From assembly GCF_032854445.1 (NCBI RefSeq), contig NC_088299.1:9605608-9669607 (forward strand): a stretch of DNA of 64,000 bases, given 5' to 3'. Source of the stretch: Liolophura sinensis (Eukaryota > Mollusca > Polyplacophora > Chitonida > Chitonidae). Each line of letters opens with the position of its first letter. Positions within the stretch are counted from its first letter, which is position 1. The position numbers and the translations under genes are program-made. Under the pieces are notes generated by a model. That model had not been told where the DNA came from and did not search any database. It saw only the letters and a program-made list of their open reading frames with translations. Shown here piece after piece: positions 1,567 through 64,000 of the stretch.

Positions 1567-4500
1567 GTTGGAGTTTGAGTTGGAGAGAGACAAGCGAGAA
1601 CGTGATGCCAGGGAGAGAGAACTCAGGGAAAGAGAACTTAGGGAAATTGAACTGCGAGAAAAGATGAAAGCAGAATTAGACATGAAGCCCCCAGGTAATC
1701 ATTTTTCTTTCCCCTCCATACAAAAGAAATTGTATGAGAAATTTTGTTTCATTGATTAAATGCATTATGTTGTTCATTGACTTATTTTTTTTTTTATGTT
1801 GATATAATTTTTGGCCTCAGGTGTGTTAGGGAAGAAGTTGAGTGTAAAGCTTCTGTAATGCAAACTTCACAGTAGACAGAAATCTGTAAGTGTTAAAGTG
1901 TAATATAATTATGATGCACCTGTTAGATAGATAGCATTCAGCAAGAGGTAAATAGCTAAATTTTGCACTGTAATTCTTCAACGTTTTTCCGTGTTTGCAA
2001 AGTGTCTATTCAAGCATATTCTGAAGGCAATATTCTGCATAGACTGATAAGATTGTGTTTTTTGTGTGAAGCCCTGAAATTGACCAACCCATCCAGTTTA
2101 GTTTTGTCTCCAAAATCAAATTAAATGTGGGCATCAACTCCACTGAATGTTGCTATTTCATGTGCAAAAGGTTGAGGTTGAGGGAAGTCAGTGAAGAGAG
2201 GTAAATTGTGAAACATGGCAATCTGTCAAGCTTAACTGGGAATATTGAATCTTAAGATGTTAATAAAGATGTTTCTATCTTTAATCTTTCGTAGGATTTG
2301 AGCGATTGGTGGGCCCAGGAGGTAACCCATTGGATCCTCACTTGTTAGAACTCCAGAGGCGTTACGGCTACCCCATACCTGGGGGAAATGCCCTGGTACC
2401 CACAGGAGCGCATCACATCCCTGGAGTGTACCCACCCACGAGTTTAGCCAGCGACCTTATAGCGCGAGATCGGGAGCGACTAGATCGTCTAGGTGAGACT
2501 GTCGTCTTCGTCTCAGATGTGATGATGTAGAAATTATATGCTGATTAACACATTGAAATAAGAGATTTAATTGTAATACTTCCATAGGTGAAAATAATTC
2601 ATGTCCTCTGAAGGAAGGTTGTTGTTTATTCACTGAAGAATTCGGATATAAATGTATATCTATGATCTACATGTAGGCTGGGCTCTTCCAACACTTCAGC
2701 ACAACTTGTTTGTTGGATTTCTGATCTTCATTCTTGATGACAACATAGGGATGATTCAAACTAGAAATAGCACATTCAGACTGAAAAATTAAGGCTTTCA
2801 AACTCATCCAAAATGAAGGACTATTTTTGTTTTTTCATAATTGTTCAGATGACTATAAGTGCTGATGGAAATTATTTTAATAGTTAAAAAGATGAAATAG
2901 AACAATGAAATTTCGTTCATGCTGAAATGTTCATTTTGGATACTCAAACTTCGACACAGGTTTCGTGTTCGATTCAGGTATTCATTAAATTCTCCCACAT
3001 CATTGAATATTATTATGAAGATTTCAAGAGGTGACCTCAGCCTGATTTTGTTTTGTTTGTTTTCATGACAGATTAAAATTTATTAATTTAGACTTACTGT
3101 GAACTTTTGGGTGCATAATGTCAGACTTCAGCCAGCTCATTATTAAAGTATAAGGGAGGCCACTGAGGGTGGCACCTGACTGATTGCCAGTCAAGGGGAG
3201 AGAACCCAGCCTACAATGTGTTGCGCTGTCTGCTGATCACTCCAGCTGTTTTGTGTCATTGATCATATTAAGTTTGTTGTTTCTAAAAGTTCTAACATTA
3301 AGATGAAATACTTTTGTTTTCTTACTGCTTCGGAGAAAATTTCAACATTGAAACCGGTGTTGCAAGTGATCATGAATGTATTGCGACATCTCCCTGGATG
3401 CAGAGCAAATTTTGCGACAACAGTGTCATCTTTTTTCACCATGTCCTTCACATTTTACACTGTTATATCTAGTGATATCCACACATAATGGACGCCCCCT
3501 TTTGTCAGTCCCACTGGAATGTTAATGGCGAAATGGAAATTCATCCTCCTATTTCAAATAGTATTACACACCATCAATGTTGTAATTTTTTCAAGAAAAA
3601 AAAAAAGGATTTAAGAAATAATCTTTTTTGCAATTTTGTATATGGAGTTTCACAATTCTGTTATATGATCAAAAATTGTTCAAACTGATCTTTTGTAGTC
3701 AAGTTTGAACAGGACGCTGCGAAACCGTTTCAGTAATATATGAATTGCATCTCTGTGTACTTTCCTCTGTATATTTGTTTTTTCTTGCTCCACTATTTGC
3801 TGTTGTGATGTACCCCCACCCAAAGGGACATAACTCTGCACACACATATTGAACAGCCCTTCGGAAAAAATACACAACAGACAACCCCCACCCCCCAACA
3901 TAGACCCTGTTCCCAATGCCCCCCAGTCAGCCAAAGTTGAAATTTTCTGAAAGCAGTAGGAAATCGAAAGTATTAGCTTGAGAATTGGACAAGGCTTAAA
4001 TTTTGTGTTTTATTTGCTAATTGTTACTTCACAGGGACTTTATTGCAACACTGGAAAGTTGTGGATAATTTGTTATTTTTTTTTTGGTTCACTGCTTTTT
4101 CAGTATAGAACCTAAAAAAAAGAAAAGAAAGAGTAAAGTAAAATTGTCCTAAGGGAATATGCAAGTGTTTGAGCTAGAACAGTTATTTCCCCTGTACACT
4201 AGAGGCATTGATGTCAGCAGGGGTGAAACGGTCAAAGACTCTTGTCTACCCTTGTCTAAAAAAATACCCAGCTTAAATTTGTAAATAACAGTGCAAAATT
4301 GCCATTTTAATAGTGTGCAGGGTAAATAATTTTTAATATTGCTGGACAGTAATTGAAAAATTTTGTTCTTGGGGACCTTGCCATATTTTTGCAAAGTTTG
4401 GTTTAAAATATTTGTGTAGGCATGCCCATGGGCCCCCCTATGGCCTGCGAGTCAAGCTTCAACCCCTCCGAACTTATGTCTGCTGAGAGACTTCAGGCTG

Positions 4501-14282: not shown

Positions 14283-14603
14283 AAGGACATAAGCGGCATG
14301 ATCTGTTCTGATCGTGCCGTATGTATTATTCTGATTGGATGTTCTCATGACACTGCACAGACGGCCTCTAGGCGGCCCCAGGACCCTTGGCTACAAGGCT
14401 GGGATAGCATGGTTCCGATTATGTAGAACCCAAATCTTATAAGGAAATATATGCATTTGTGCTGGGTGGCCCAAAATGATTATCAAATAAAAATCGTCTA
14501 AATCAGCGTCTCCGTCTTTCAGAATGGCCAGAGCTAGTTCTCAACCCAATTCCCCACCCCCACCAAACCTCCAAAATTTATAACGTTCCACTGCCCCTGT
14601 TAC

Positions 14604-16250
14604 TTTTCTGTGGTAGAAACTTCTCTGTGATAATAGATCTCTGTGGAACAGTTATCTGTGGTAAAATATTCTGGTGTAAATCTGGTCTATAATAACACTT
14701 CTCCGGGGTAAAACTTGTCTGTGGTAATAGATCTCTGTGGAAGCACTTCTCTGTGGTAAAATATTATGGTGTAAATCTGGTCTATAATAACACTTCTCCG
14801 GGGTAAAACTTGTCTGTGGTAATAGATCTCTGTGGAAGCACTTCTCTGTGGTAAAATATGTCTGCTGTAAATCTGGTCTATAATAACACTTCTCCGGGGT
14901 AAAACTTGTCTGTGGTAATAGATCTCTGGTGTAAGTCTCGTCTACAGTAAAACGGCTTTGTGTTAACACTTCTCTGTCTTTATCTACGGTAGTTTTTCTG
15001 GATCGTAAAATTTCTCTGTGGCAATGAATCATGATTGTAGTTCTGTGTCACAATAGTTCTCAGTGGTAATGGTTGTCTCATACAGAACTTTGTCCATTGT
15101 TGTAGTTTTGTGTCACAATAGTTTTGTGAGGTAATGGTTCTCTCATGTAAAACTTTGTCCATGATTGTAGTTCTGTCATAATAGTTCACTGTGGTAATGG
15201 TTCTCTCATATAAAACTTTGTCCATGATTGTAGTTCTGTGTGATAATAGTTCTCTGTGGTAATGGTTCTCTCATATAAAACTTTGTCCATGATTGTAGTT
15301 CTGTCATAATAGTTCACTGTGGTAATGGTTCTCTCATATAAAACTTTGTCCATGATTGTAGTTCTGTGTGATAATAGTTCTCTGTGGTAATGGTCCTCTC
15401 ATATAAAACTTTGTCCATGATTGTAGTTCTGTGTGATAATAGTTCTCTGTGGTAATGGTTCTCTCATATAAAACTTTGTCCATGATTGTAGTTCTATGTG
15501 ATAATAGTTCTCTGTGGTAATAGTTCTCTCATATAAAACGTTGTCCATGGTTGTAGTTTTGTGTCATAATAGTTCTCTGTGGTAATGGTTCTCTCATGTA
15601 AAACTTTGTCCATTTAATTATCTGGCGAAACAGTTCTCTGTGGCGATAGATCTCATTTTAAACTTTGTCTTTGATGGTAGTTCTCTGGCGTAATAGTTCT
15701 CTGTGGCAATGGATTTGATGTAGACATCTCTAAATGATAGCACTTATGAGTCGTAGCAGCTCTGGGTGGCAGTGGCTCCCTGATGTATTCGTAAAACTTT
15801 GGCTATGGTAGACTTTCTTGGCCACAAAGTTCTCCATGGCACTGGTTCTCTGATGTAAAACTTTGTCCATGGTAGTCTTTCTTGGTCAAAAAAGTTCTCC
15901 GTGGAAATGGTTCTCTGGTGTAAAACGTTGTCTACGGTAGTCTTTCTTGCTCACAAACGTTCTCCGTGCACTGGTTTTCTGATGTAAAACTTTGTTTATG
16001 GTAGTCTTTCTTGGTCACAAATGTTCTCCGTGGCACTGGTTCTCTGATGTAAAACTTTGTTTTTGGTAGCCTCTCTTGGTTACAAAAGTTCTCCGTGGAA
16101 ATGGTTCTCTGATGTAAAACTTTGTCTACGATAGTCTTTCTTGCTCACAAACGTCCTCCGTGCACCGGTTTTCTGATGTAAAACTTTGTTTATGGTAGTC
16201 TGTCTTGGTCACAAAAGTTTTCCGTGGTACTGGTTGTCTGATGTAAATCT
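14604..16250. repeat. Satellite array S1 (65- and 95-bp units) upstream of WXW1
   Basis: Three blocks share the motif ttctctgtggtaa with taaaactt. Block a (14604-14960) has about 3.5 units of 95 bp. Block b (15000-15620) has about nine units of 65 bp (tctcatataaaactttgtcc, gttctgtgtgataatag), some shortened to 60. Block c (15780-16250) has about seven units of 64-65 bp (gatgtaaaactttgt, ggtagtctttcttgg). The 32-bp array in WXW2 (27.4-31.5 kb) has the same core, so the 65-bp unit looks like a diverged dimer of it. Minus-strand open frames here are a result of the repeat. Confidence 0.9.
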
Positions 16251-16510
16251 TTGTCTATGCATTAATGTTAGTTGCAATTTATTAAAACTCTGTGGTCTAG
16301 ACTTAATCAAAATGCTGTGATGTCGCCATATTTGATAGAAAATCACACCAAAACACTTATTTTCGTAATTATTTATGCACATCATACTTTCATCTTAAGA
16401 TTCAGTTAAACAAGTGCGAAGTTTTCTCTTCTGTAAGACTTCTGTGTCCTCGTGTCCTTGATCCCCATGTTTTCGATCACGTGATTAAGATCTATCTGCA
16501 TCAGCTGGCA

Positions 16511-25187: not shown

Positions 25188-28100
25188 ATGGATTGTGTCT
25201 GGCTCTACGCATCATTCGTCGTCATCTTAATCCCGGCCGTCTGGGAAATTCAGGCAGTACCCTCAAGATTTGGGGAACAGAGACGATTTGTTACATTTTA
25301 GACTGGTAACCTTAACAATGCGCTTAGAGAAAAGAGAAAATCGAAGAAGATCTTCGCCAAGAAAAGCGTCAAAGCAAAGCATTGCAAGAAGAGCTAAGCA
25401 AACTTACACAAAGAATAACGACAAATGAAGAGAAACTGGTAAATCGCTCAGGGGAAGAGAAGTTGTCGGTAGATGCTGTGAAGGGGCTGACAGATCTCGC
25501 GAGAAAAACGTTCCAGGCCGACATGAACCTGTTGACGTCAGGCCTGATAGCGGAAAAACAGAGAACCGTTGAGTTCTGTAAAATGACCCTGAAAAGCCAT
25601 TCCTCTCGCTTGGACGCCATTGACGGAAGCGTGAGTGAACTTGAGGGTAGTTTGACGAATCTCAGCGAAACCGTCATGGCCGTAAACAAAAGCTGTTATC
25701 AGTGCTCTGCTCATGCGTCAGTGGAAGGAACTGACGCCAGACCAGGTATTCAATTCTTTGTAATTGTAGCATTTCAGTTGTGTGATGTAAATTGCTTATT
25801 TTTCCGTAAGCAGCTTCATGCTGTCTATGTCTATACCGCAGCTGATAATCTTTATTTGTCCAGTTCACTAATTTCTGTCTCAAAAACGTACAGTCATGTA
25901 GATTTCAATTGTGCGAATGATACCAGATAAGACATAAAAAGGCACACGTAAAAAAACTGAAATTAACATTGACATGCAGCTGTAGAACTTTGATGAATAA
26001 AAGTGTATTGATTTTATTAATTCTAACCGATATTCCATTTTGCATGTCCAGTGGAGATGTTCGTTTGCTTTCAATAGCGGGTCTAACTACCATCGAGCAT
26101 TAGGATAGACGTCTATTCTAATCTCATCTGACATCCAGCAAGGCAATGGCGGATATAGTTTTAGAGTGACAGTGTAGGTAATAAACAGTAATATTGGGGG
26201 TAGTGTTTACAGCGACCGTCTAGCTAACAGGCAAGACAATGACGGAGCTAACGCGCAGAGCAACAGCCTAGGTAATAAACACTGTAATGGCGGAGCTAGT
26301 GTTTACAGGGACCGTCTAGCTAAAAGGCATCGCAATGACGGAGCCAGTGTGTAGAGCGACAGTCTGGGTAATAAACACTGTAATGGTGGAGCTAGTGTTT
26401 ACGGCGACCATCTAGCTAATAGGCACGACAGTGACAGAGCTAGTGTGTAAAGTGATCGTATAGCTAACAGGAACGGCAATAGCGAAGCTAGTGTGAAGAG
26501 CAAATGTGTAGTACCTTACTAAGTACGGCAATGGGGAAGCCAATGCGTAGAGCAAACGTCAAGTTCCTATTAAAGTACGGAAATGGCGGCGCTAGTATGG
26601 AAAGCAATAGTCTAGTCAATAATCATGGTAATGGAGGTGCTAGTGTGTCGAACGACCGTCTAGTTAATACAACTGCTAATGGAGGCACTACTGTGTTGAA
26701 CGACCGTCTAGTTAATACATATGCTAATGGAGGCACTAGTGTGTTGAGCGATAGTCTAGTCAAGAAGCACGGTACTGGCGGAACTTATGTGTAGAGCTGT
26801 GCCTTTGTGGTCGAAGGGCTTAGCACGCCAGCACGGCACAATGACAAGAGCCTTCAGGCAATGTGGTCGCTGTGAGTTTAAGTCCAGCTAATGTTGGCTT
26901 CCTCTCCGGCCACACGAGGGAAGGTCTGACAACAATGTGCGAACGGTCGAGGGTTTCCTACGGGCTCTGAGAGGTTTCCTCCCACCATAATGTTAGCCGC
27001 CGTCGTATAAGTGAAATATTCTTGAGTACGGCGTAAAACACCAATTAAAGAAATAAATGTGTAGGGCCATTGTCTTGCTAATAGGTACGGTATAGTGACG
27101 GGGCTGGTTTAGACTGGGTCCAATCGGCAGTGCAACCAATGCTTGTGTTAATAGTTCTCTGTGGTAATAGTTGCCTTTGGTACTAGCTTTCTAATGTAAA
27201 ATTGTCAATGATAGCGGGCTGTAGCCAGGTGCTTGCATTTTTGTCGCTTAGGTGTGGATTGAAACCCGTTTGAGGGAGCGAGTGGTTGGGGTTTAACGTC
27301 GTACTCAACAATTTTTCAGTCATATAACGACGAAGGAATCCTTAGGGTGTATGAAATGTGCCTCATTGTTGCCAGTCCTCTTTTATCTAATCCTGCTACA
27401 CTGAGACGATTTACCGAAGGCAAGTAAGCCGTCTCTTTGGTAAGAGTGGTCTTTTATAAAACTTCTCTGTTAAGCGTGATCTGCTGTAATATTTCTCTGT
27501 GGTAAGACTCATCTTCTGTGAAACTTCTCTGTGGTAATGGAGGTCTGCTGTAAAACTTCTCTGTAATAAGAGTGGTCTGCTGTAAAACTTCTTTATGCTT
27601 AGATTGATCTTCTGTTAAACTTCATTGTGGTTAGAGTGATCTACTCTAAAACTTCTCTGTGGTAAAATTGATTTTTTGTAAAACTTATGGTATGAGTGAT
27701 CAGCTGTAAAACTTCTCTGTGGTAAGAGTGGTCCTCTGTAAAACTTCTCCGTGGTAAAATTGATCTTTTGCAAAACTTTTCTGTGGTAAGAGTGATCTGC
27801 TGTAAAACTTTTCTGTGCTAAGAGTGATCTTCTTTAAAACTTCACTTTGGTGATAGTGATCTGCTTCAAAACTTCTCTGTGGTAAATTTATGTTTTGTAA
27901 AACTTCTCTGTGGTAAAAGAGATCCGCTGTAAAACTTCTCTGTGGTTAAATTGATTTTTTGTATAATTTCTCTGTGGTAAGAGTGATCTTCCGTAAAATT
28001 TCTCTGTGGTAAGAGTGATCTGCTGTAAAACTTCTCTGTGGTAAGAGTGATCAGGTGTAAAATTTCACTTCACTGATAAGAGTGATCAGGTGTAAAACTT

Positions 28101-31100
28101 CACTTCACCCCACAAAACTTCACTTTACCCCATAAGTGAATATTACGCACGAAAGTTACTTGTATTGAGGGTCAAGAGGGGAGTAAGTTAGTTGATCCGT
28201 TAACAACCCGATTGAAACAAAAAGCTGTCGTAAGTTGTAAGTTTTGCGTGTCTGCAGACGAACACATCAGAGACCAAGCTATAGACAAATGTCGAGACAG
28301 CCACACAGAAGGGGAAAATCCCTTGAGAACTGTAAAGACTTGACAATAGATAAGCCAGCTGAAACAGCACGAGCGTTTAAGTCTATACAGAGCCAAGCAG
28401 CTGAGATTTAGGCACGGTCTAAAGAGTCAGTTAATAAAGTGGCTAGTAACAATCAAACGAAATTCCGAAAGAGGGACAGTGGCAAAAGGAATGTGAAACG
28501 CCACAGGTGTGGTCGCCATGGCCACATATGAACGGACAAAACCTGCCCCGCCATTGGGCAGACAGATTATTCTGGAAAGCAGAGTAAACGCAGCAATTGT
28601 AAACCAGGCTCGAATAAAGTAAACTAGGTAGCCGACGATGACAATGAATTTGTGTTTCGCGTAAATGACAATGTGCGCGACGGAATGATGGTGTTTTCCC
28701 CAGGATCTGTGCCGATAGATATGCTGATGGATTCAGGTGGAATATATAACATAAAGACGGGCGCTTACGCAAGGGCTCAAGCGTTTGATTGATAAAGACA
28801 TAACTTTAATCCAGAGAAATGTCAATTATGCATGTCAGAACTGACTTTCATGGAAAACAAATGGTCTGAAAAGGGAGCTGACCCGACCTGCGGAAAAGTT
28901 GAAGCAATTGCAAACGCTAAAAGCCCTGAGACAGCTCTGGAGGTACGTGTACATTTTATTCCTGACGCTGCGACGGTGTCTGAACCACTGAGACTGTTAA
29001 CCACAAAACAACGTGTCTTTCTCCTGGGGAGAGAAGGAACAGAACGCATTTGATACGCTGAAGCAGAAACTTTCTGAAGCGAAGACGCTTGAATATTACG
29101 ATCGTAACGCGAAACGTGTGTTACCGCAGACGCGAGCCCTGTTGTACTCGGCGCGATGTTGTACCAGGTGAGTAAAAGTGATGAACACTATGTCGTGAGT
29201 TACGCCATAGTTTGAGTGACGCGGAAAAACGCTGCTCGTAGACGAAGAAGGAGGCCGGTGCCCTTGTTTGGGCATGCGTGAGATTCCACATTCACAGTTA
29301 TGGGATAGACTTTGAGTTGATCATTGAGCATAAACTGTTGAAGTTGATTTTCTCCAAACGATCCAGGCCATCAGCGAGAATTGAGCCTTGGATACTGAGG
29401 TTACAACTGTATTCGTTCACGGTTAGCCATTCGCCAGGGAAAACGAATATCGCTGATGCGTTGTCAAGATTGACACAGATAACGAACAGATCTGTGCCGA
29501 CCCGCAGAAACGTCGCGGAGGAATACATAAGAATTCGGTTCCAGCATCTATGTGGGCAAAGGATGTAGAACGCGAATCGCAGTGGACGTCGTACTATCAG
29601 ATGTTCGTGAGAGCATCAAGACAGAAAACTGGAACTCTGTGAGAGTTAAGCATTACCAGGCTGTTCAGAATGAAATGAGCGTGTTAGGTCGATTAGTTCT
29701 GAGGGGAAACGAGAATTGGGCAGGTAAGTATTGAAACTTGCACACGTGGGCCAGCAGGGTGTCAACACACAGATCAACATTCCCAACTGGTCCGTGGGAG
29801 GATTTATCGCTTGACCTAATGGCCACTTGACCACTACCGTCCGGAGATCATATTACGGTGCTTGTGGATTACTGTAGCCGGTACTATGATGTCGGAATCG
29901 TGAAATCAACAACGTCTGCCAGCCTGATAGACTATTTGGACAAAATGTTTGCTACCTATGGAATGCCATATTCTATTACAACAGACAATGGCGCAAACTT
30001 GGCATCTAAGGAATTCGAAGATTACCTGGCAGAAAACGGAATTATGCAACTTTAAGTCACCCGCTTTGGCCACATGCAAACGGGCAAGTCGAGAGACAAA
30101 ACAGAACAATCAACAGAACGAATAGAGCAGACTGATTGGAAGTGAAAACTTAAGAAATTCCTTCTTGCGTACAGAACGACACCCCATGTCATAACTGGTG
30201 TTTGTCCTGCTGAACTGTTGTCTGGTCGAAAACTTCAAACAAATTTACCCGGCTTGAACATAGAAAGCCTTAGATACGATTCCGAAGCGCGCGATCGTGA
30301 TGCGGAGAGGAAGAAGGTCGAATAGATTATCTTGTTTATTATGTAACCGGAAGTGCTCGTGTGTACGCGTATCTCTGTGTTGTAGTTGATGTGCAGAACA
30401 CACTCATTTCATTAGAGTCTCCCAGTTAAATCTGGCAAATCCAGTAAGGAAACTGAACAGCTTCTCTGTGGAAAGAGCGATCTGTTGTAAAACTTTTCTG
30501 TGATAAAAGTGACCTTCTGTAAAACTTGTTCGTGGTAATACAGATCTTCTGTAAAGCTTCTCTGTGGAAAAAGCGGTTTGCTGTAAAATTTTTGCGTGGT
30601 AAGAATGATCTTCTGTAAATCTTCTTTGTGTTAATAAAGATCTGCTGTAAAACTACTATGTGGTCAGAGTGATCAGCTGTGAGACTTCTTTGTGGGAAGA
30701 ATGATCTGCTGTAAATCTTTTCTGTGGCAATATCCAGCTATCATACAATATCTCTGTGATAAACGTGATCTTCTGTAAAACTTCTCTATGGTAACAGAGA
30801 TCTTCTGTAAAGCCTGTTCGTTGCAAGAGAAGTCTGCTGTAAAACTTGTCTGACATGCTGTAAAACTTGTCTGAGAGTAAAGCGTCTCTGTGGTAAGAGT
30901 GATCAGCTGTAAAACTTCTCTGTGGTAATAGTAATCGGCTGTAAAACTTCTCTGTTGGTAATAGTAATCGGCTGTAAAACTTCTCTGTTGGTAGGACTGA
31001 TCTTCTGTAAAACTTTGTGGTATGAGTGATCTGTGGTAAAAGAGAACTACTGGTAAAAGACACCTACAGTAAAACTTGCTTGTGGTAAGAGAGATCCGCT

Positions 31101-34100
31101 TTAAAATTTGTCCATTGTAATAAAGATCTACTGTAAAACTTCTCTGTGGTAAAAGAGATCTACTGTAAACTTGCCTGTGGTAAGTTTACCCTTGCTGTGA
31201 TCTATTATGTATTGTCTCTGAGACAACAGGGATCTGCTGTAAAACTTCTTTGCGGTAAGAGTGATCTATTGTAAATCGTCTCAGTGACAAAGGGGATCCG
31301 CTGTAAAACTTCTCTGTGGTAAAAGTGATCTGTTGTAAATTGTCTATGCGACACCAGGGATCTGCTGTAAAACTTCTTTGCGGTAAGATGATCTGTTGTA
31401 AATCGTCTCTGTGACAACAGGCATCTGCTGTAAAGCTTCTCTGTGTTAAGAGTAAATCTTCTCTTTGTGATGCAGTATGACATGTAGCCTACCCTAAGAA
31501 GCACAGTCGTGTCCTCTAGGATCTGTCTGAAATATTCTTGAATACGGTGTTGCAGCGAAACCAAAAAATCAGATATTAAAGTACAAAAACTGTCATTAGC
31601 CTTGTCATCACTTTTGTTTTGTTTATGTTTTGTTTTTTGCTTTTCAGGCAGTAGTTGGACTGGCTGGTTAAACAGTCGGACGACCAAGTCATGGGGCGCT
31701 GCACACACCAAGGTATCCTAAGCTGTACTGGCAGGTACAGATTTCAGAAATTTCAGTTCTATCACATTAACACGTGGGACACAGGTCTGGATATATCACA
31801 GGGTATTTTCGATTCAGTTCAAACGTTTATTGTCGCTATTCATCATTGTTCATAGTGTGTCGTACATGTGCAATCTGTATTTGCTGAGATGACATGACTG
31901 ACTGCAAACTAAACAGAATTTAGTAGTACATTAGACAAAGATACTTGTACTCCTCATAGACAGTGTAATCACAACGTTAGGCAAAATTACACATTATCTT
32001 AGTGTACAAACGTAGAGCAAGGTCTTTTCATATAGCATGTAGGTTATACACTAATAAATCGTAAATAAATGTACGAATCACTTTACTGTTTTTACTTTGC
32101 TATGCACTTACAGTCTGCTCATATATTTTGTGCTTAATATAAACTTACTAAGCGGGAAATCCTTCCAATGTACTTTATTAGAGTAATACTCAATCGTATT
32201 ACATTAATCTTTCATCAAAGAAGAACATTACGTTGTTGTTGTACAACGCACATGATAAACAGACCCTCGTTCTAACCTACCATCAAAATCACATTCTACT
32301 GCATACGATATCGACAAAATATTAGTCAGAGAACGCACAAATCTAACATTTATCTAATTCACAAGTTAATAGTACATAACCCTAATTAAAATGTGCCTAC
32401 AATGAAGTTTCTTTTTATGGACATATGCTTTTTCAATTGACCCATGCCGACACCCAGTGGCCCTGATTTCACCTTCTGGTATATCCGCAGAACCCCTGTG
32501 AACGTGGCACTCCGAAAAAGATTCAAGTCCGTATTTTTGGAACAACCAATGCAATCCTGTCCACGGACAATGAACTATTCGTTGGACCTAAACTCGGTTT
32601 GGTGTGTTACAACTCCTTGCAGGTCGTTAAGAGATGCAGAGATTATAGGATCCGTTTCGAAGATTCCAAAAGTAGGTTATATGTATAGATATATGAAGGT
32701 AGTTTTATGGGAAGTGACGTATTACTGAACGAAGGTATTTCTTACCTGATAATGGTTAAGTTGTTTCGTGTATATGGACCAAAAGTTTCGATCCTTCACC
32801 GATCTATCTTGATTGGTATATTTCAACATAGGATCCAGCAACGTTGATTGCACGAAATCACTTAATTGTTGAGCATTCTCCATCCCTGTTACTTGTAGGG
32901 ATAAGAATCGTTATTTCTTCTGACATGTGTAATTTTCCTTTAACGTGGCTCTGCGCATATCTTTCTGTTTAAAACACGTTGGAGTTTTTCTATATCATGA
33001 TCATCATTGTAAACCTTATCGCCCTCGTCGTCCCATCATCGTCCCATCCTCATCATCATCATCGCCATCACCGTCGCCGACGTCCTCATCGTTTATCATC
33101 GCAATCATCACCACCAACCTCACTATCATCACCATTATTATCCTTGTTGTTTTTTGGGTTTTGTTGTTGTTGTTGTTGTTGCTTTCGTTGCTGTAATGCC
33201 ATTCATCATGTGAAATTGTTGTTGCTAGCAGTTTCACGCTGGTTTAACGAAGACAATCCAGGAGGACGGGGCGATAATGAGATGAGGTCTGTAAGTATTA
33301 GCTATTCTGGTTTTACTCGCTTTGTTGTTTTCTCTTAACCCAGCTTCATGCATACTTCTCCAAGTCACCCTGTTGACCGAAATCCTACCTCTTTATCAAA
33401 GGCTGTTGTCATTCAGCTATTACGTTGTTTTAGAGGCAGCCGAGAGGTGGCAGGTTAGAATCTAGCGCATGTCGTTTCGGATGTGGCTTTTTGTCAGGCG
33501 TTTAGCAAATCTACTGTGATGCACTGTAGTTTCCTTCGCCTACGAACATGGCTGACCTTTATATTTATTTATTTTTTATCATTTTTTGTTTAGAAGCCAC
33601 GAAGTTTAGAGGATAGGAAAAACAAGTTGTGTAGTCCGTTAGCCCACGATCTACATGTACCCTGTGTTCAGTGTTATTTGCTTACCAAAACTATTTTTAA
33701 ATGTCACGGATACCTCTAAATAGATACATGAAAAATTCAGGTTTTTATTCATAGTCAGCGTCGTGATGTAATTTTGTTTTCTTTTAGGTTTATGTTTTAT
33801 ATTTATTTATTTGATCGGTGTTTTACGCGATAATAAAGAATATTTCTCCGGACACAGACCGGAGGAAACCTACGAACATCCGCATGTTGTTGGCATTCCT
33901 TTAAATGTACGACCGGAGAGCGTTTAAATATAAAGCATTCATAGTAATGACCCATTCACAAGATATACGGGTAAAAATGACGTATTAAATTATATAACGG
34001 TTTTTGCTATATTTGCCAGATCCATTCATTTAAACGAAAAGACAACAAATAATATAGCCTTAGTCACTTCCGGGAAAAATAAACCTAAACGACCCCTGCC

Positions 34101-38395: not shown

Positions 38396-39266
38396 AGTAA
38401 GTCAGTTAAACAGTTTGGGGCTGATACCATCCGGTAGCTTTATTCAAGTACCCCGAGTACGCCACTGGATTCAACAACAATACCTAGTACTTCTGTCTCG
38501 GGTGCAACTTCAGGGGCTTTTCTCTTGTCAGTCGATCTGACACTCAAAATTTTCATACCCAATCTGCTGCATGACATCTCCAAATTAATCCCTTCTGTTG
38601 TTTATACAAGAGTGAAATTCTGAGAATTATTTCACTGATAAAGGTGTTATTTTCACTGTATTGAAATAACACTCTTTGTTATTTCACTGCTGACATAACT
38701 GACCTCTGACCTGGGACTGACCCTGCCGGACTACTTTTTCCCTGCAAGACTTATTTGCAGCAGACAGTGACTTTGAAGCTGTGTTTGTCTTACTTGGAAA
38801 TGGGAATAACAGATTTGATGATTACTGCAATGATCATGTCATGAAATTTATTAAGAATCGGGAGAACACACACAAACATAAATTGTCCACTTTTGTAAGT
38901 CGGTTCCTTCTTTCTGTACGCAAGAAGGATGATTCTCTTTATGAGCCTTCCAGTTTGAGGGGATTCTGACAGCAAAGGAATTTTGGTATGAGAAGGGGAT
39001 TAGAGCAGTACAATTTTGAAGTAGGCAGATAAAAGGGTGGAAACAGACAAAGACGGCAGACAATTCATCGTATACATTTCAAGAGCTCCAAACTAAAAAG
39101 ACCGGTGATAATCCAAGTGATATCAAGAAAGTATATACCACGCCTGAGAACCCAAAGAGAGATCCAGCTGCAATCCATATGTGAGGTCAACATAAATTTT
39201 TCCTACCTGACCCATAGGGCCTAATGATTTGTAGACACGTACAAAATTACTTTTGCCTATTTTAGA

Positions 39267-39410
39267 TATATTTATTTATTTTTTTGATTGGTGTTTAACG
39301 CCATGCTCGGGAATATTTCACTTATACGACGGCGGCCAGCATTATGGTGGCAGAAAACCGGGCAGAGCCCAGGGAAAACCCACGACCATCCGCAGATTGC
39401 TGGCAGACCG
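39267..39410 (-). mobile_element. SINE-A, tail half, inside the recombinase remnant
   Basis: ttttgattggtgtttaacgc, ttatacgacggcggccagca, ccatccgcagattgctggca. The head half is missing. Confidence 0.8.
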
Positions 39411-39782
39411 CCCATTTTAGACACGAATGAATGAGCCTTGGGGATATAAATATTAATTATTCCCACTTTTTACAATACACTTTAGGCCTACCTTACATGG
39501 CGAAATATTTAGCTGAGGACAGCAAATGTTTTGTAGGCGAAGCCAAGGAAAGACATACTTTATGTCATGACAGTCATTCTCACTCTATGCATTTTTTTTC
39601 ACTACAGGGAATATTCCAACAGAAGGCCTGACAACACGAGGAATCCAGGTGATGCCTTTCTTCCTGTCAGTTAACAGCCCTAACTCATTACCTGGTCAAC
39701 AATGGTTCAAGTATCAGAACATAGGAATCAAGAAGATCTGCTGTATCATGAAAAACACGAAATCTAAAACAACCATGTCGTC

Positions 39783-42024
39783 TGACAAATACCCCACAAA
39801 CCACAGTGCACGCAAGCACCTAAACACCCCACAAACCACAGTACACGCAAGCACCTAAACACCCCACAAACCACAGTACACGCAAGCACCTAAACACCCT
39901 ACAAATCACAGTGCACGTAAGCACCTGAACACCCTACAAACCACAGTGCACGCAAGCACCTAATCCAGAAACATGACATCTAAAACAACCATGTAGTCTG
40001 ACAAACACCCCACAAACCACAGTACACGCAAGCACCTAAACACCCTACAAACCACAGTGCACGCAAGCACCTAATCCAGAAACATGACATCTAAAACAAC
40101 CATGTAGTCTGACAAATACCCCACAAACCACAGTGCACGTAAGCACCTGAACACCCCACAAACCACAGTACACGCAAGCACCTAAACACCCTACAAGCCA
40201 CAGTGCACGCAAGCACCTAATCCAGAAACATGACATCTAAAACAACCATGTAGTCTGACAAACACCCCACAAACCACAGTACACGCAAGCACCTAAACAC
40301 CCTACAAATCACAGTGCACGCAAGCACCTAATCCAGAAACATGACATCTAAAACAACCATGTAGTCTGAAAAATACCCCACAAACCACAGTGCACGTAAG
40401 CACCTGAACACCCCACAAACCACAGTACACGCAAGCACCTAAACACCTCACAAACCACAGTGCACGTAAGCACCTGAACACCCTACAAACCACAGTACAC
40501 GCAAGCACCTAAACACCCTACAAACCACAGTGCACGCAAGCACCTAATCCAGAAACATGACATCTAAAACAACCATGTAGTCTGACAAACACCCCACAAA
40601 CCACAGTACACGCAAGCACCTAATCCAGAAACATGACATCTAAAACAACCATGTAGTCTGACAAACACCCCACAAACCACAGTACACGCAAGCACCTAAA
40701 CACCCTACAAACCACAGTGCACGCAAGCACCTAATCCAGAAACATGACATCTAAAACAACCATGTAGTCTGACAAATACCCCACAAACCACAGTGCACGT
40801 AAGCACCTGAACACCCCACAAACCACAGTACACGCAAGCACCTAAACACCCTACAAGCCACAGTGCACGCAAGCACCTAATCCAGAAACATGACATCTAA
40901 AACAACCATGTAGTCTGAGAAACACCCCACAAACCACAGTACACGCAAGCACCTAAACACCCTACAAATCACAGTGCACGCAAGCACCTAATCCAGAAAC
41001 ATGACATCTAAAACAACCATGTAGTCTGACAAATATCCACAAACCACAGTGCACGTAAGCACCTGAACACCCCACAAACCACAGTACACGCAAGCACCTA
41101 AATACCTCACAAACCAAAGTGCACGTAAGCACCTGAACACCCTACAAACCACAGTACACGCAAGCACCTAAACACCCTACAAACCACAGTGCACGCAAGC
41201 ACCTAATCCAGAAACATGACATCTAAAACAACCATGTAGTCTGACAAACACCCCACAAACCACAGTACACGCAAGCACCTAATCCAGAAACATGACATCT
41301 AAAACAACCATGTAGTCTGACAAACACCCCACAAACCACAGTACACGCAAGCACCTAAACACCCTACAAACCACAGTGCACGCAAGCACCTAATCCAGAA
41401 ACATGACATCTAAAACAACCATGTAGTCTGACAAATACCCCACAAACCACAGTGCACGTAAGCACCTGAACACCCCACAAACCACAGTACACGCAAGCAC
41501 CTAAACACCCTACAAACCACAGTGCACGCAAGCACCTAATCCAGAAACATGACATCTAAAACAACCATGTAGTCTGACAAACACCCCACAAACCACAGTA
41601 CACGCAAGCACCTAAACACCCTACAAATCACAGTGCACGCAAGCACCTAATCCAGAAACATGACATCTAAAACAACCATGTAGTCTGACAAATACCCCAC
41701 AAACCACAGTGCACGTAAGCACCTGAACACCCCACAAACCACAGTACACGCAAGCACCTAAACACCTCACAAACCAAAGTGCACCTAAGCACCTGAACAC
41801 CCTACAAACCACAGTACACGCAAGCACCTAAACACCCTACAAACCACAGTGCACGCAAGCACCTAATCCAGAAACATGACATCTAAAACAACCATGTAGT
41901 CTGACAAACACCCCACAAACCACAGTACACGCAAGCACCTAATCCAGAAACATGACATCTAAAACAACCATGTAGTCTGACAAACACCCCACAAACCACA
42001 GTACACGCAAGCACCTAATCCAGA
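39783..42024. repeat. Satellite array S4 made of recombinase coding sequence
   Basis: Two unit types alternate: 35 bp (caccctacaaaccacagtgc, acgcaagcacctaaa) and 76 bp (adding atccagaaac, atgacatctaaaacaacc and atgtagtctgacaaa). The long unit equals the recombinase segment from SKTTMSSDKYPTNHSARKHL to IQK with few changes. A higher-order repeat of 659-660 bp is seen (same block at 40045, 40705 and 41364). Cysteine-rich minus-strand open frames come from the repeat. Boundaries are set by the loss of the monomer. Confidence 0.93.
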
Positions 42025-42189
42025 AACTTGATAATGATAATAACATACCTCCAAGTCAAATAATTCAGATATCAGATCACAGAAACCTTAACAGTGTTAT
42101 TAAATTATAGCACACTTAACACCAGTCAGCAAGCTACCAGACTTCTACCCAACACTAATAAAACTACCTGTGTCTTCCGTACCGCCTCC

Positions 42190-48168: not shown

Positions 48169-48629
48169 CAATCCCAACCCGTGGCGCTATGGTTGTAACT
48201 GTTCATTAAAGCATCATAGTGATGTCACAAACAGGAAGCCATACAGACAAACAAAGCGTCTACCTTTTCTCCGATAGCAACCATAAGCTATTACTAATTT
48301 TAGTCGTTGTCGTTGTATTATTATTACATTTTGTGTGACTTTCTCGTAAGAAATAATTTTCTCACAAAAAGAAGACATCCGCATAAGTGAAAAGACCTAG
48401 GAATAATTTCTTTAGAATTAAAGTCAGTCTTGTTTGACGTTTCTTCTTGATTTTTCTCAGTGTCGAGGTGATATGACCCTCGTTTACGGCAGGGTATGAA
48501 TTGAAGAGTTTAAATCAAAAGACGATGTTCAATACAGGCTTCACCTAAGACTTCACAAATCTTATAAGATCTGAAAATTAAAAAAAAATGAACCAGTTTC
48601 AAGAGAACTTGTGATATGCGCAAACTGTA

Positions 48630-49140
48630 AACCGAGAGAAACCTGTGCAGTCTGCAGATATAAGTGAATTCATTAGAAGAAAAGTGTGCAGTCTGCAGAT
48701 ATAAGTGAATTCATTCCAAGAAAAGTGCGCAGTCTGCAGATGTAAATGAATTCATTCCAAGAAAATGTGCAGTCTGCAGATATAAGTGAATTCACTTATT
48801 TGGTTATGCGCAAACTGTAAACCGAGAGAAACCTGTGCAGTCTGCAGATATAAGTGAATTCATTAGAAGAAAAGTGTGCAGTCTGCAGATATAAGTGAAT
48901 TCATTCCAAGAAAAGTGCGCAGTCTGCAGATGTAAATGAATTCATTCCAAGAAAATGTGCAGTCTGCAGATATAAGTGAATTCATTCCAAGAAAAGTGTG
49001 CAGTCTGCAGATATAAGTGAATTCATTCCAAGAAAAGTGCGCAGTCTGCAGATATAAATGAATTCATTCCAAGAAAATTGTGCAGTCTGCAGATATAAGT
49101 GAATTCATTACAAGAAAAGTGTGCAATCTGCAGATTATAT
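48630..49140. repeat. Satellite array S5, 41-bp units
   Basis: About 11 units of gtgcagtctgcagatataag with tgaattcattccaagaaaa; each holds CTGCAG and GAATTC. A larger duplication of 190 bp (tatgcgcaaactgtaaaccg at 48615 and 48805) is laid over it. Confidence 0.92.
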
Positions 49141-49158
49141 GAAATTTGGTTATGCGTG

Positions 49159-57999: not shown

Positions 58000-60900
58000 A
58001 TGGTGTACGCACATTTATTCACATTACCACCTCTAATGCTATCACCTCTACTGCTATCCGAGTATGCAAACAGGAGCGGACATTAATACACGCTGCTAAT
58101 TCTAGTACTGTCCGAGCATGGGAACAGGAACGGACATCAATACATGCTACCACTTTTACAACTATCCGAGTATGGGAGCAGAAACAGGCCTTTTTACACA
58201 CTATCGCTTCCCCCTACTACCCGAGTATGGAAACAGAAATGAAAATTAATACACACTTAGGCTTCCCCCTACTACACGAGTATGGGAACAGGAACGGTCA
58301 TTAATACACGCTACTGCTTCCCCCTACTACCCAAGTTTAGGAACAGGAACGGCCATTAATACATGCTTCCGCTTCCCCCTACTACCCAAGTACAGGAACA
58401 GGAACGGTCATTAATACACGCTTCCGCTTCCCCCTACTACCCGAGTATAGGAACAGGAACGGTCATTAATACGCGCTTCCGCTTCCCCCTACTACCCAAG
58501 TACAGGAACAGGAACGGTCATTAATACACGCTTCCGCTTCCCCCTACTACCCGAGTATAGGAACAGGAACGGTCATTAATACACGCTTCCGCTTCCCCCT
58601 ACTACCCGAGTATAGGAACAGGAACGGTCATTAATACTTGCTACTGCTTCCCCCTACTACCCGAGTATAGGAACAGGAACGGTCTGTAATACATGCTACC
58701 GCTTCCCCCTACTACCCGAGTATAGGAACAGGAACGGTCATTAATACACGCTTCCGCTTCCCCCTACTACCCGAGTATAGGAACAGGAACGGTCATTAAT
58801 ACATGCTACTGCTTCCCCCTACTACCCGAGTATAGGAACAGGAACGGTCATTAATACACGCTACTGCTTCCCCCTACTACCCAAGTATAGGAATAGGAAC
58901 GGCCATTAATACACACTTAGGCTTCCCCCTACTACCCGAGTATAGGAACAGGAACGGTCATTAATACACGCTTCCGCTTCCCCCTACTACCCGAGTATAG
59001 GAACAGAAACGGCCATTAATACATGCTTCCGCTTCCCCCTATTACCCGAGTATAGGAGCAGGAACGGCCATCAATACACGCTTCCGCTTCCCCCTACTAC
59101 CCGAGTATAGGAACAGGAACGGTCATTAATACACGCTTCCGCTTCCCCCTACTACCCGAGTATAGGAACAGGAACGGTCATTAATACACGCTTCCGCTTC
59201 CCCCTACTACCCGAGTATAGGAACAGGAACGGCCATCAATACACGCTACTGCTTCCCCCTACTACCCGAGCACAGGAACAGGAACGGTCATTAATACATG
59301 CTTCCGCTTCCCCCTACTACCCGAGTATAGGAACAGGAACGGTCATTAATACACGCTTCCCCCTACTACCCGAGTATAGGAACAGGAACGGTCATTAATA
59401 CACGCTTCCGCTTCCCCCTACTACCCGAGTATTGGAACAGGAACGGTCATTAATACACGCTACTGCTTCCCCCTACTACCCGAGTATAGGAACAGGAACG
59501 GTCATTAATACACGCTTTCGTTTCCCCCTACTACCCGAGTATAGGAACAGGAACGGTCATTAATACATGCTACTGCTTCCCCCTACTACCCGAGTATAGG
59601 AACAGGAACCGTCATTAATACACGCTTTCGCTTCCCCCTACTACCCGAGTATAGGAACAGGAACGGTCATTAATACTTGCTACTGCTTCCCCCTACTACC
59701 CAAGTATAGGAACAGGAACGGCCATTAATACATGCTACTGCTTCCCCCTACTACCCGAGTATAGGAACAGGAACGGCCATTAACACACGCTACTGCTTCC
59801 CCCTACTACCCGAGTATAGGAACAGAAACGGCCATTAATACATGCTACTGCTTCCCCCTACTACCCGAGTATAGGAACAGGAACGGTCATTAATACACGC
59901 TTCCGCTTCCCCCTACTACCCGAGTATTGGAACAGGAACGGTCATTAATACACGCTACTGCTTCCCCCTACTACCCGAGTATAGGAACAGGAACGGTCAT
60001 TAATACACGCTTTCGTTTCCCCCTACTACCCGAGTATAGGAACAGGAACGGTCATTAATACATGCTACTGCTTCCCCCTACTACCCGAGTATAGGAACAG
60101 GAACGGTCATTAATACACGCTTTCGTTTCCCCCTACTACCCGAGTATAGGAACAGGAACGGTCATTAATACATGCTACTGCTTCCCCCTACTACCCGAGT
60201 ATAGGAACAGGAACCGTCATTAATACACGCTTTCGCTTCCCCCTACTACCCGAGTATAGGAACAGGAACGGTCATTAATACTTGCTACTGCTCCCCCCTA
60301 CTACCCAAGTATAGGAACAGGAACGGCCATTAATACATGCTACTGCTTCCCCCTACTACCCGAGTATAGGAACAGGAACGGCCATTAACACACGCTACTG
60401 CTTCCCCCTACTACCCGAGTATAGGAACAGAAACGGCCATTAATACATGCTACTGCTTCCCCCTACTACCCGAGTATAGGAACAGGAACGGTCATTAATA
60501 CACGCTTCCGCTTCCCCCTACTACCCGAGTATAGGAACAGGAACGGTCATTAATGCACGCTACTGCTTCCCCCTACTACCCGAGTATAGGAACAGGAACG
60601 GTCATTAATACACGCTTCCGCTTCCCCCTACTACCCGAGTATAGGAACAGGAACGGTCATTAATACACGCAAATGCTTCCCCCTACTACCCGAGTATAGG
60701 AACAGGAACGGCCATCAATACACGCTACTGCTTCCCCCTACTACCCGAGCACAGGAACAGGAACGGTCATTAATACACGCTTCCGCTTCCCCCTACTACC
60801 CGAGTATAGGAACAGGAACGGTCATTAATACACGCTACTGCTTCCCCCTACTACCCAAGTTTAGGAACAGGAACGGCCATTAATACATGGTTCCGCTTCC

Positions 60901-61045
60901 CCCTACTACCCGAGTATAGGAACAGGAACGGTCATTAATACACGCTAGTGCTTCCCCCTACTACCCGAGTATAGGAACAGGAACGGTCATTAATACACAT
61001 TATCCGTTTCCCACTGCTTCCCGAGTATGGGAACAAGAACGGGCA
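58000..61045. repeat. Satellite array S6, 55-bp units, about 3 kb
   Basis: About 54 units of gcttccccctactacccgag, tataggaacaggaacggtca and ttaatacacgctac. The left edge units (58000-58260) are diverged and about 54 bp. A higher-order repeat of about 605 bp (11 units) is visible: the variant gaaccgtcattaatacacgc occurs at about 59606 and 60211 with matching neighbours. Confidence 0.95.
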
Positions 61046-61220
61046 AAAATACAGCGAGTGTCGTTGATCGCTTTTTGTCACCAATACCTCACCAGTAGTG
61101 AAAGCGGATGAATCTAAGAATTGCTTACAAAAGAGATTAAACCTGCCCCTAGCTGTGGATATGCAAGTATCTTATCCGCTACACATGTACAAGCCAAACA
61201 CGTACGTGAACGTGAGATCT

Positions 61221-63221: not shown

Positions 63222-64000
63222 ACCCGGCGGCATCACTCTTCATCGCACACACACAGTGACATTCATGGTGTGCCTGCTAACACACACGCAGTGACACCCG
63301 TGTTGTATCCGCTATCACACACATAGTGACATTCATGTAGTGTCCGCTATCACACACACAGTGACACTCATGGTGTGCCTGCTACCACACACGCAGTGGC
63401 TTTCATGATGTGCCTTCTACCTCACACGCAGTGACATCCGTGTTGTGTCCGCTATCACAGACATAGTGACATTCATGTAGTGTCCGCTATCACCCACATA
63501 GTGACATTCATGTAGTGTCCGCTATCACAGACACAGTGACATTCATGTAGTGTCCGCTATCACACACATAGTGACATTCATGTAGTGTCCTCTATCACAC
63601 ACATAATGACATTCATGTAGTGTCCGCTGTCACACACATAGTGACATTCATGTAGTGTCCTCTATCACATACAGTGACATCCGTGTTGTGTCCGCTATCA
63701 CCCACATAGTGACATTCATGTAGTGTCCGCTATCACAGACACAGTGACATTCATGTAGTGTCCGCTATCACACACATAGTGACATTCATGTAGTGTCCTC
63801 TATCACACACATAATGACATTCATGTAGTGTCCGCTGTCACACACATAGTGACATTCATGTAGTGTCCTCTATCACATACAGTGACATCCGTGTTGTGTC
63901 CGCTATCACACACATATTGACATTCATGTAGTGTCCGCTATCACACACATAGTGACATTCATGTAGTGTCCTCTATCACACACATAGTGACATTCATGTA
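63222..64000. repeat. Satellite array S7, 35-bp units, running off the window
   Basis: About 21 units of gtgacattcatgtagtgtcc with gctatcacacacata. A higher-order block of about 209 bp repeats (catacagtgacatccgtgtt at about 63668 and 63877). The left units (63240-63440) are more diverged, as expected at an array edge. Confidence 0.93.

Follow-up and report, generated by a model that had tools for sequence, protein, structure and literature searches.

A minisatellite that very probably arose in place inside a dead Crypton-like copy of Liolophura sinensis

We found a 2.2-kb tandem array of 35- and 76-bp units within the remains of a recombinase gene in the window, by which we mean the whole stretch of 64,000 nucleotides analysed here. 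Very probably, the array is a minisatellite that originated where it now lies, within a single, dead copy of a Crypton-like element, and that grew in two phases. Parent sequence is present at both edges of the array, paralogues without the array exist in the same genome, the array is built of nested blocks and no second array of this monomer was found in the genome. The parent is a decayed copy of a Crypton-like DNA transposon with a tyrosine recombinase, of which further copies are dispersed in the genome.

The array and the parent gene at its edges

The array holds 45 tandem copies of a 26-bp core, ACAAACCACAGTGCACGCAAGCACCT, if up to four substitutions are allowed, with the first core starting at 39796 and the last one at 41991 (Table 1). 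Of the 44 spacings between cores, 28 measure 35 bp, 15 measure 76 bp and one measures 75 bp; the 45th core is part of the right edge, and the first and last cores thus double as parent edges. Taken together, the rows reported by TRF cover 39753-42031, and TRF also detected a period of 257 bp in the array. An array of 35- and 76-bp repeats inside a recombinase frame with the parent at both edges was what the original prediction had described, and this description was confirmed. It had further taken all units to be copies of one stretch of the gene. This holds for the 76-bp unit, which comprises the codons from about SK to IQK, but the 35-bp unit spans less, only the codons for about KYPTNHSARKHL, and the long units have TAG (16 of 16 complete ones) where the left edge has TCG.

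A feature absent from the original prediction is the arrangement of units 6-44 in three higher-order blocks of 13 units each. The order of unit lengths is identical in the three blocks, with eight units of 35 bp and five of 76 bp, one of which is 75 bp long in the second block. The variant AAATAC, present in the left edge, reappears in the inner units 8, 13, 21, 28, 34 and 39, a pattern expected from exchange between units of the array.

Table 1. Features of the Crypton-like copy and its tandem array in the window (% values are identities)
Feature	Positions	Strand	Details
5' end of the Crypton-like element and N-terminal coding remnant	38598-38966	+	frame LFAADSDF...SSLRGF, 38751-38966
Putative intron between the two coding parts	39181-39607	+	splice donor GTGAG and acceptor ACAG, identified by eye both here and in L001
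Left parent edge	39608-39822	+	exon GNIPTEG...SKTTMSSDKYPTNHSARKHL; 79.5% over 263 bp to L001, ending at 39823
Tandem array	39787-42016	+	45 cores: 28 units of 35 bp, 15 of 76 bp and one of 75 bp, then the right-edge core
Higher-order block 1	40003-40662	+	units 6-18, 660 bp; 99.1% to block 2, 99.4% to block 3
Higher-order block 2	40663-41321	+	units 19-31, 659 bp; 99.1% to block 3
Higher-order block 3	41322-41981	+	units 32-44, 660 bp
Right parent edge	41982-42111	+	NHSTRKHLIQKLDNDNNIPPSQIIQISDHRNLNSVI from 41994; alignments to L001 and L005; tblastn matches to L001, L002, L003 and L005

Recombinase codons enter the array on the left and leave it on the right. The translation of the left flank, GNIPTEGLTTRGIQVMPFFLSVNSPNSLPGQQWFKYQNIGIKKICCIMKNTKSKTTMSSDKYPTNHSARKHL, is free of stops, and the left frame runs without a stop across 72 residues until it ends with ...SKTTMSSDKYPTNHSARKHL at 39822. 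The sequence NHSAR, which from the alignment and from the motif as we know it we take to be the H-x-x-R box of a tyrosine recombinase, has its catalytic-type H at 39802-39804 and its R at 39811-39813 in the left edge. The two edges are out of phase, being 2195 bp apart, a distance that leaves a remainder of 2 on division by 3. Thus, from the earlier claim that one and the same frame enters and leaves the array, the recombinase codons on both sides stood but the common frame did not. Further downstream, the codon at the tyrosine position (42106-42108, assigned by eye against L002) sits in a different frame, and the N-terminal stretch of the copy contains stops. With stops in its frames, the array and the shifted tyrosine codon, the window copy is a dead remnant and not a complete working element.

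Paralogues without the array and the identity of the element

Four dispersed paralogues, L001 (C1), L002 (C2), L003 (C8) and L005 (C7), have the same place without the array, and each of them continues through this place into the downstream codons. In L001 and L005, the alignment covers both flanks of the place of the array. The box is kept in L001, L002 and L005 and partly deleted in L003. Damage is found close to the box, where L002 lacks about 12 codons just after it, L003 lacks its end and L005 lacks some codons before it, and only L001 among the four paralogues is intact over the entire stretch. The right flank including the box is 84% identical to L001 over 115 bp and 86% to L005 over 98 bp. 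A homologue without similarity to the monomer would have argued against an origin from the gene; the comparison of L001 with the monomer gave 85% over 80 bp. TRF detected no array with a period of 30-80 at the box of L001, L002, L003 or L005. L001 does carry, at 3196-3698, a perfect tandem duplication of 250 bp that covers the box and shares three bases (GCA) at its junction; this duplication is independent of the window array. The reverse strand of L001 contains an open frame of 445 amino acids that is endonuclease-like and, by eye, resembles a non-LTR retrotransposon.

The monomer was then searched for in the complete 609-Mb genome. A 29-base core pattern with at most three mismatches gave 48 matches, 45 of them in the array, two in L001 and one in L005; the reversed pattern, used as a control, gave 0 matches, and the number of matches in the array is far above chance. 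The 76-bp unit yielded 32 matches in a DNA search that omits very common words, scores the best candidates only and reads masked stretches as N; 30 of these were at the array locus and two in L001. All 25 matches obtained with a 29-aa peptide were located at the array locus. At the sensitivity of the 76-bp and 29-base searches, the monomer is thus not widespread, and no second array of it was found in the 609-Mb genome. The paralogues without the array and the missing second array indicate that the repeat grew in place, which agrees with the original prediction that it arose from the recombinase gene and did not land there. The suggestion that related elements had seeded satellites of the same monomer elsewhere found no support in these searches.

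Minisatellites are single-locus tandem arrays with units of roughly 10-100 bp, and the array, with units of 35 and 76 bp at one locus, is a single-locus 2.2-kb minisatellite. It is not a satellite, as had been proposed, since satellite DNA consists of long arrays that are usually present at many loci. It also belongs to the transposon-derived tandem repeats, as the monomer is homologous to the element's own sequence and an array-free relative is present.

Pfam searches with the short window pieces did not identify a recombinase family; the best entries were PF18273 (E 0.13) and PF16209 (E 0.15), both taken as chance. The link to Cryptons came instead from L002 and from genes of this genome with Pfam matches. 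Two of these genes, L014 and L008, come from loci with above-cut-off matches to PF12012 (DUF3504) and were compared in two-subject blastp runs with filters and composition correction off. The left piece matched L014 with 37% over 54 aa (E 4.6e-8) and L008 with 29% over 56 aa (E 7.7e-4), the right piece matched L008 with 37% over 35 aa (E 8e-7) and L014 with 34% over 35 aa (E 8e-6), and L002 matched L014 with an E value of 4.6e-12. A search with L002 returned 19 matches, nine of which overlap and one of which adjoins PF12012 matches. Profile searches with L002 gave no recombinase family for the C-terminal frame (best T_Ag_DNA_bind 0.015 and Exu 0.022, below the cut-offs), and for the N-terminal frame QRICH1 (E 2.7e-4) and PF12012 (0.13), both likewise below the cut-offs. 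Common motifs are W[FY]K.Q..G (window, L002, L014), TNHS[AV]RK and GH[KR]...S[IV]..Y (L002, L014), and a scan with N-[HF]-[ST]-x-[RKC]-[KR] detected the box in six of the 13 DUF3504 loci fetched. These features correspond to a DUF3504/YR-type tyrosine-recombinase core with R-H-R-Y residues, the first R of the tetrad not having been located. The genome contains at least 59 PF12012 matches (best 150 of 167 candidates scored), representing DUF3504/Crypton-type genes, several of them with long open frames.

Copies of the element are dispersed over C1, C2, C5, C7 (two) and C8. The 5' end of the window copy is defined by matches of L003, L006 and L007, which start at window position 38598, and of L001 and L002, which start at 38601; at this end TTTATTATTTATACA is common to L003, L006 and L007. 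For its 3' end, no boundary was detected. The N-terminal frame of the window gave tblastn matches in L001, L002, L003, L004 and L005; L004 has retained this N-terminal part, and no match to the box was detected within the 5 kb fetched there. The window copy has its 5' end in common with L006, at 75% over 89 bp, and with L007, which matches additionally via a SINE-like dispersed repeat. This repeat lies at about 39270-39409 inside the putative intron of the window copy, is 86% identical to L007 over 140 bp and also has matches in L002 and L005. It is absent at that place in L001, where its flanking blocks are close together.

Non-autonomous derivatives are abundant. L006 (371 bp) fuses the 5' and 3' ends of L002/L003, and a search with it gave 653 first-look candidate places; all 40 that were scored (L006 itself included) matched, mostly in pieces. 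This short derivative of the Crypton-like element occupies positions 1340-1710 of the L006 sequence. A comparison of its first and last 150 bases, with a few flanking ones, revealed no terminal inverted repeats, no match being longer than 11 bp. In the account of PMC3212892, DUF3504 is derived from Crypton recombinases, animal Cryptons are described as having no terminal repeats and non-autonomous Crypton copies are far commoner. The structure and abundance of L006 and its missing terminal inverted repeats fit the description given there, and we named the family Crypton-like, of the animal type and CryptonA-like.

Growth of the array and alternative explanations

The growth of the array very probably started with the tandem duplication of two stretches, one of 76 bp and one of 35 bp, which overlap at the H-x-x-R codons; the four and two bases shared at the respective junctions are consistent with slippage or microhomology-mediated repair. 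In the second phase, misaligned exchange or repeated slippage inside the new repeats would have mixed the 35- and 76-bp units and would next have built the 257-bp block and then the 660-bp block of 13 units. A recent tripling of the 660-bp block would have been the last step. Which repair pathway acted, which of the 35- and 76-bp duplications came first, where the 257-bp step belongs in this order and whether the gene had died beforehand are matters of inference. A function for the array was not seen and none is needed.

At the 76-bp junction, GAAAC is joined to AAAAAC with four bases in common (AAAC), and at the 35-bp junction, CCTAA is joined to AAACACC with two bases in common (AA), both determined by eye. 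Among the flank positions at lags of 76 and 35 bp, 3.8% reach at least four shared bases and 23.8% at least two. The overlap of two bases at the 35-bp junction is therefore expected by chance, and the four bases at the 76-bp junction are weakly informative. Two bases close to the 76-bp junction are not those of the left edge, so that a small templated insertion may have occurred there.

Divergence falls from the comparison of the window edges with L001 (K2P 0.17-0.21) through that of the left edge with an inner unit (5 of 68 sites, or 6 of 69 with the first junction base) to that of the blocks with each other (0.6-0.9%). These figures are based on 68-126 sites and ignore gene conversion; read in this way, the first duplication would postdate the split from L001 and the tripling of the blocks would have come last. 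We also considered the left edge as the unchanged ancestor of the units and rejected this, because comparison with L001, L005, L002 and L003 as outgroups revealed derived differences in both, AAATAC in the left edge and GACATC in the array. Left edge and array would thus be two sister copies.

The array length is taken from the assembly alone, for one individual of one species, and it might be argued that copy number and block structure largely reflect misassembly of an array that is in reality much shorter or longer, as the three blocks are 99% alike and short reads could not span them. We consider this improbable, since the blocks are not exact copies but differ at six (1/2), four (1/3) and six (2/3) positions; moreover, the mixture of 35- and 76-bp units and both edges are independent of the number of blocks.

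Equally unlikely, in our opinion, is that the H-x-x-R exon is a recurrent birthplace of duplications in a genome unusually active in turning microhomology duplications into minisatellites. If this were true, such machinery could be studied starting from this locus, where the order of events is legible. The narrower idea that the box is a duplication hotspot of this element family, with its sequence or the action of the recombinase provoking independent tandem duplications, appears very unlikely. Duplications at the box are present in two of the five copies that have the place (window, L001, L002, L003 and L005), namely the window array and the 250-bp duplication of L001. However, the window copy was selected because it has an array; setting it aside leaves one of four, and L002, L003 and L005 show no tandem duplication at the box. 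One of four is unremarkable in a genome in which arrays with a period of at least 10 cover 0-32% (mean 11%) of 12 sampled 10-kb stretches at round coordinates, three of the 12 having an array of at least 1 kb. With tandem arrays this common, no special cause has to be invoked for one that lies in a dead transposon. That the duplicated codons have a catalytic role looks incidental, and nothing that we found points to this role as a cause.

That a pre-existing satellite or minisatellite was inserted into or captured by the recombinase gene, its likeness being coincidental or the result of later conversion, is hardly credible. In its favour, capture was considered by the authors of PMC7320549 for a comparable case, where they judged it less likely. 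It is contradicted here by the monomer being recombinase coding sequence of array-free paralogues on other contigs, with no array found elsewhere at up to three mismatches in 29 bases.

Comparison with known tandem repeats

Birth in place from the codons of a transposable element is a known mode of repeat formation, and the window array is a clean example of it. So clear an origin had been called rare in the original prediction; rarity of the process itself is at odds with the frequency of tandem arrays in this genome and with an origin from transposase codons already described in PMC7320549. According to that report, the start monomer of CficCl-61-40 in Chenopodium was a fragment of about 40 bp of the tnp2 transposase domain of the CACTA-like element Jozin. 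Both cases have a coding piece of a DNA-transposon transposase as monomer and an array adjoining the parent fragment. They differ in that CficCl-61-40 is reported as a genome-wide satellite making up 3.80% of C. acuminatum with a tnp2 fragment attached to the array (PMC7320549), whereas the window array occupies one locus, has the parent at both edges and is accompanied by paralogues that lack it within the same genome.

A tandem repeat with similarity to Cryptons, in a genome with scattered short arrays, has been described for the oyster Crassostrea gigas, where CgiSat40 is assigned to the Repbase class DNA/Crypton by similarity (PMC8268682). In contrast to the window array, CgiSat40 has a long monomer of 673 bp and is found on all ten chromosomes, with no point of origin demonstrated in the account given there. 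The same source names the tandemization of a mobile-element segment as one possible source of monomers and describes the similarity of the oyster repeats to non-Helitron elements as fragmentary (PMC8268682).

A start inside transposable elements, followed by expansion, is also reported for the LTR-retrotransposon-derived satellites of Lathyrus sativus (PMC7004042) and for Tetris/TIR-220 of Drosophila virilis (PMC4079207). Those repeats, as presented in the two papers, came from tandem repeats that pre-existed in the elements and were expanded elsewhere in the genome, whereas the window array started from a single-copy catalytic exon. In this it resembles the CUP1 arrays of yeast, which are attributed to unequal nonhomologous recombination and derive from a sequence whose single-copy state is known (PMC4232551). 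The CUP1 unit holds a metallothionein gene (PMC4232551); the unit described here is a short piece of a dead element. In the open-access literature searched, we found no minisatellite or satellite that had been traced to Crypton coding sequence.

Later turnover as a rule removes the traces of how a tandem repeat began. A parent still legible at both edges is less common; together with the array-free state, the two founding junctions and the recent block expansion, this makes the order of events and the junctions testable. The locus shows an array-rich genome turning dead transposase codons into repeats, and the known picture of satellite origins is unchanged by it. In the window, arrays with a period of at least 10 make up 17.5% of the sequence, compared with the mean of 11% in the sampled stretches, and further arrays, partly interrupted, are located at 14602-16259, 26144-28132, 30461-31462, 48615-49143, 58028-61053 and 63246-64000.
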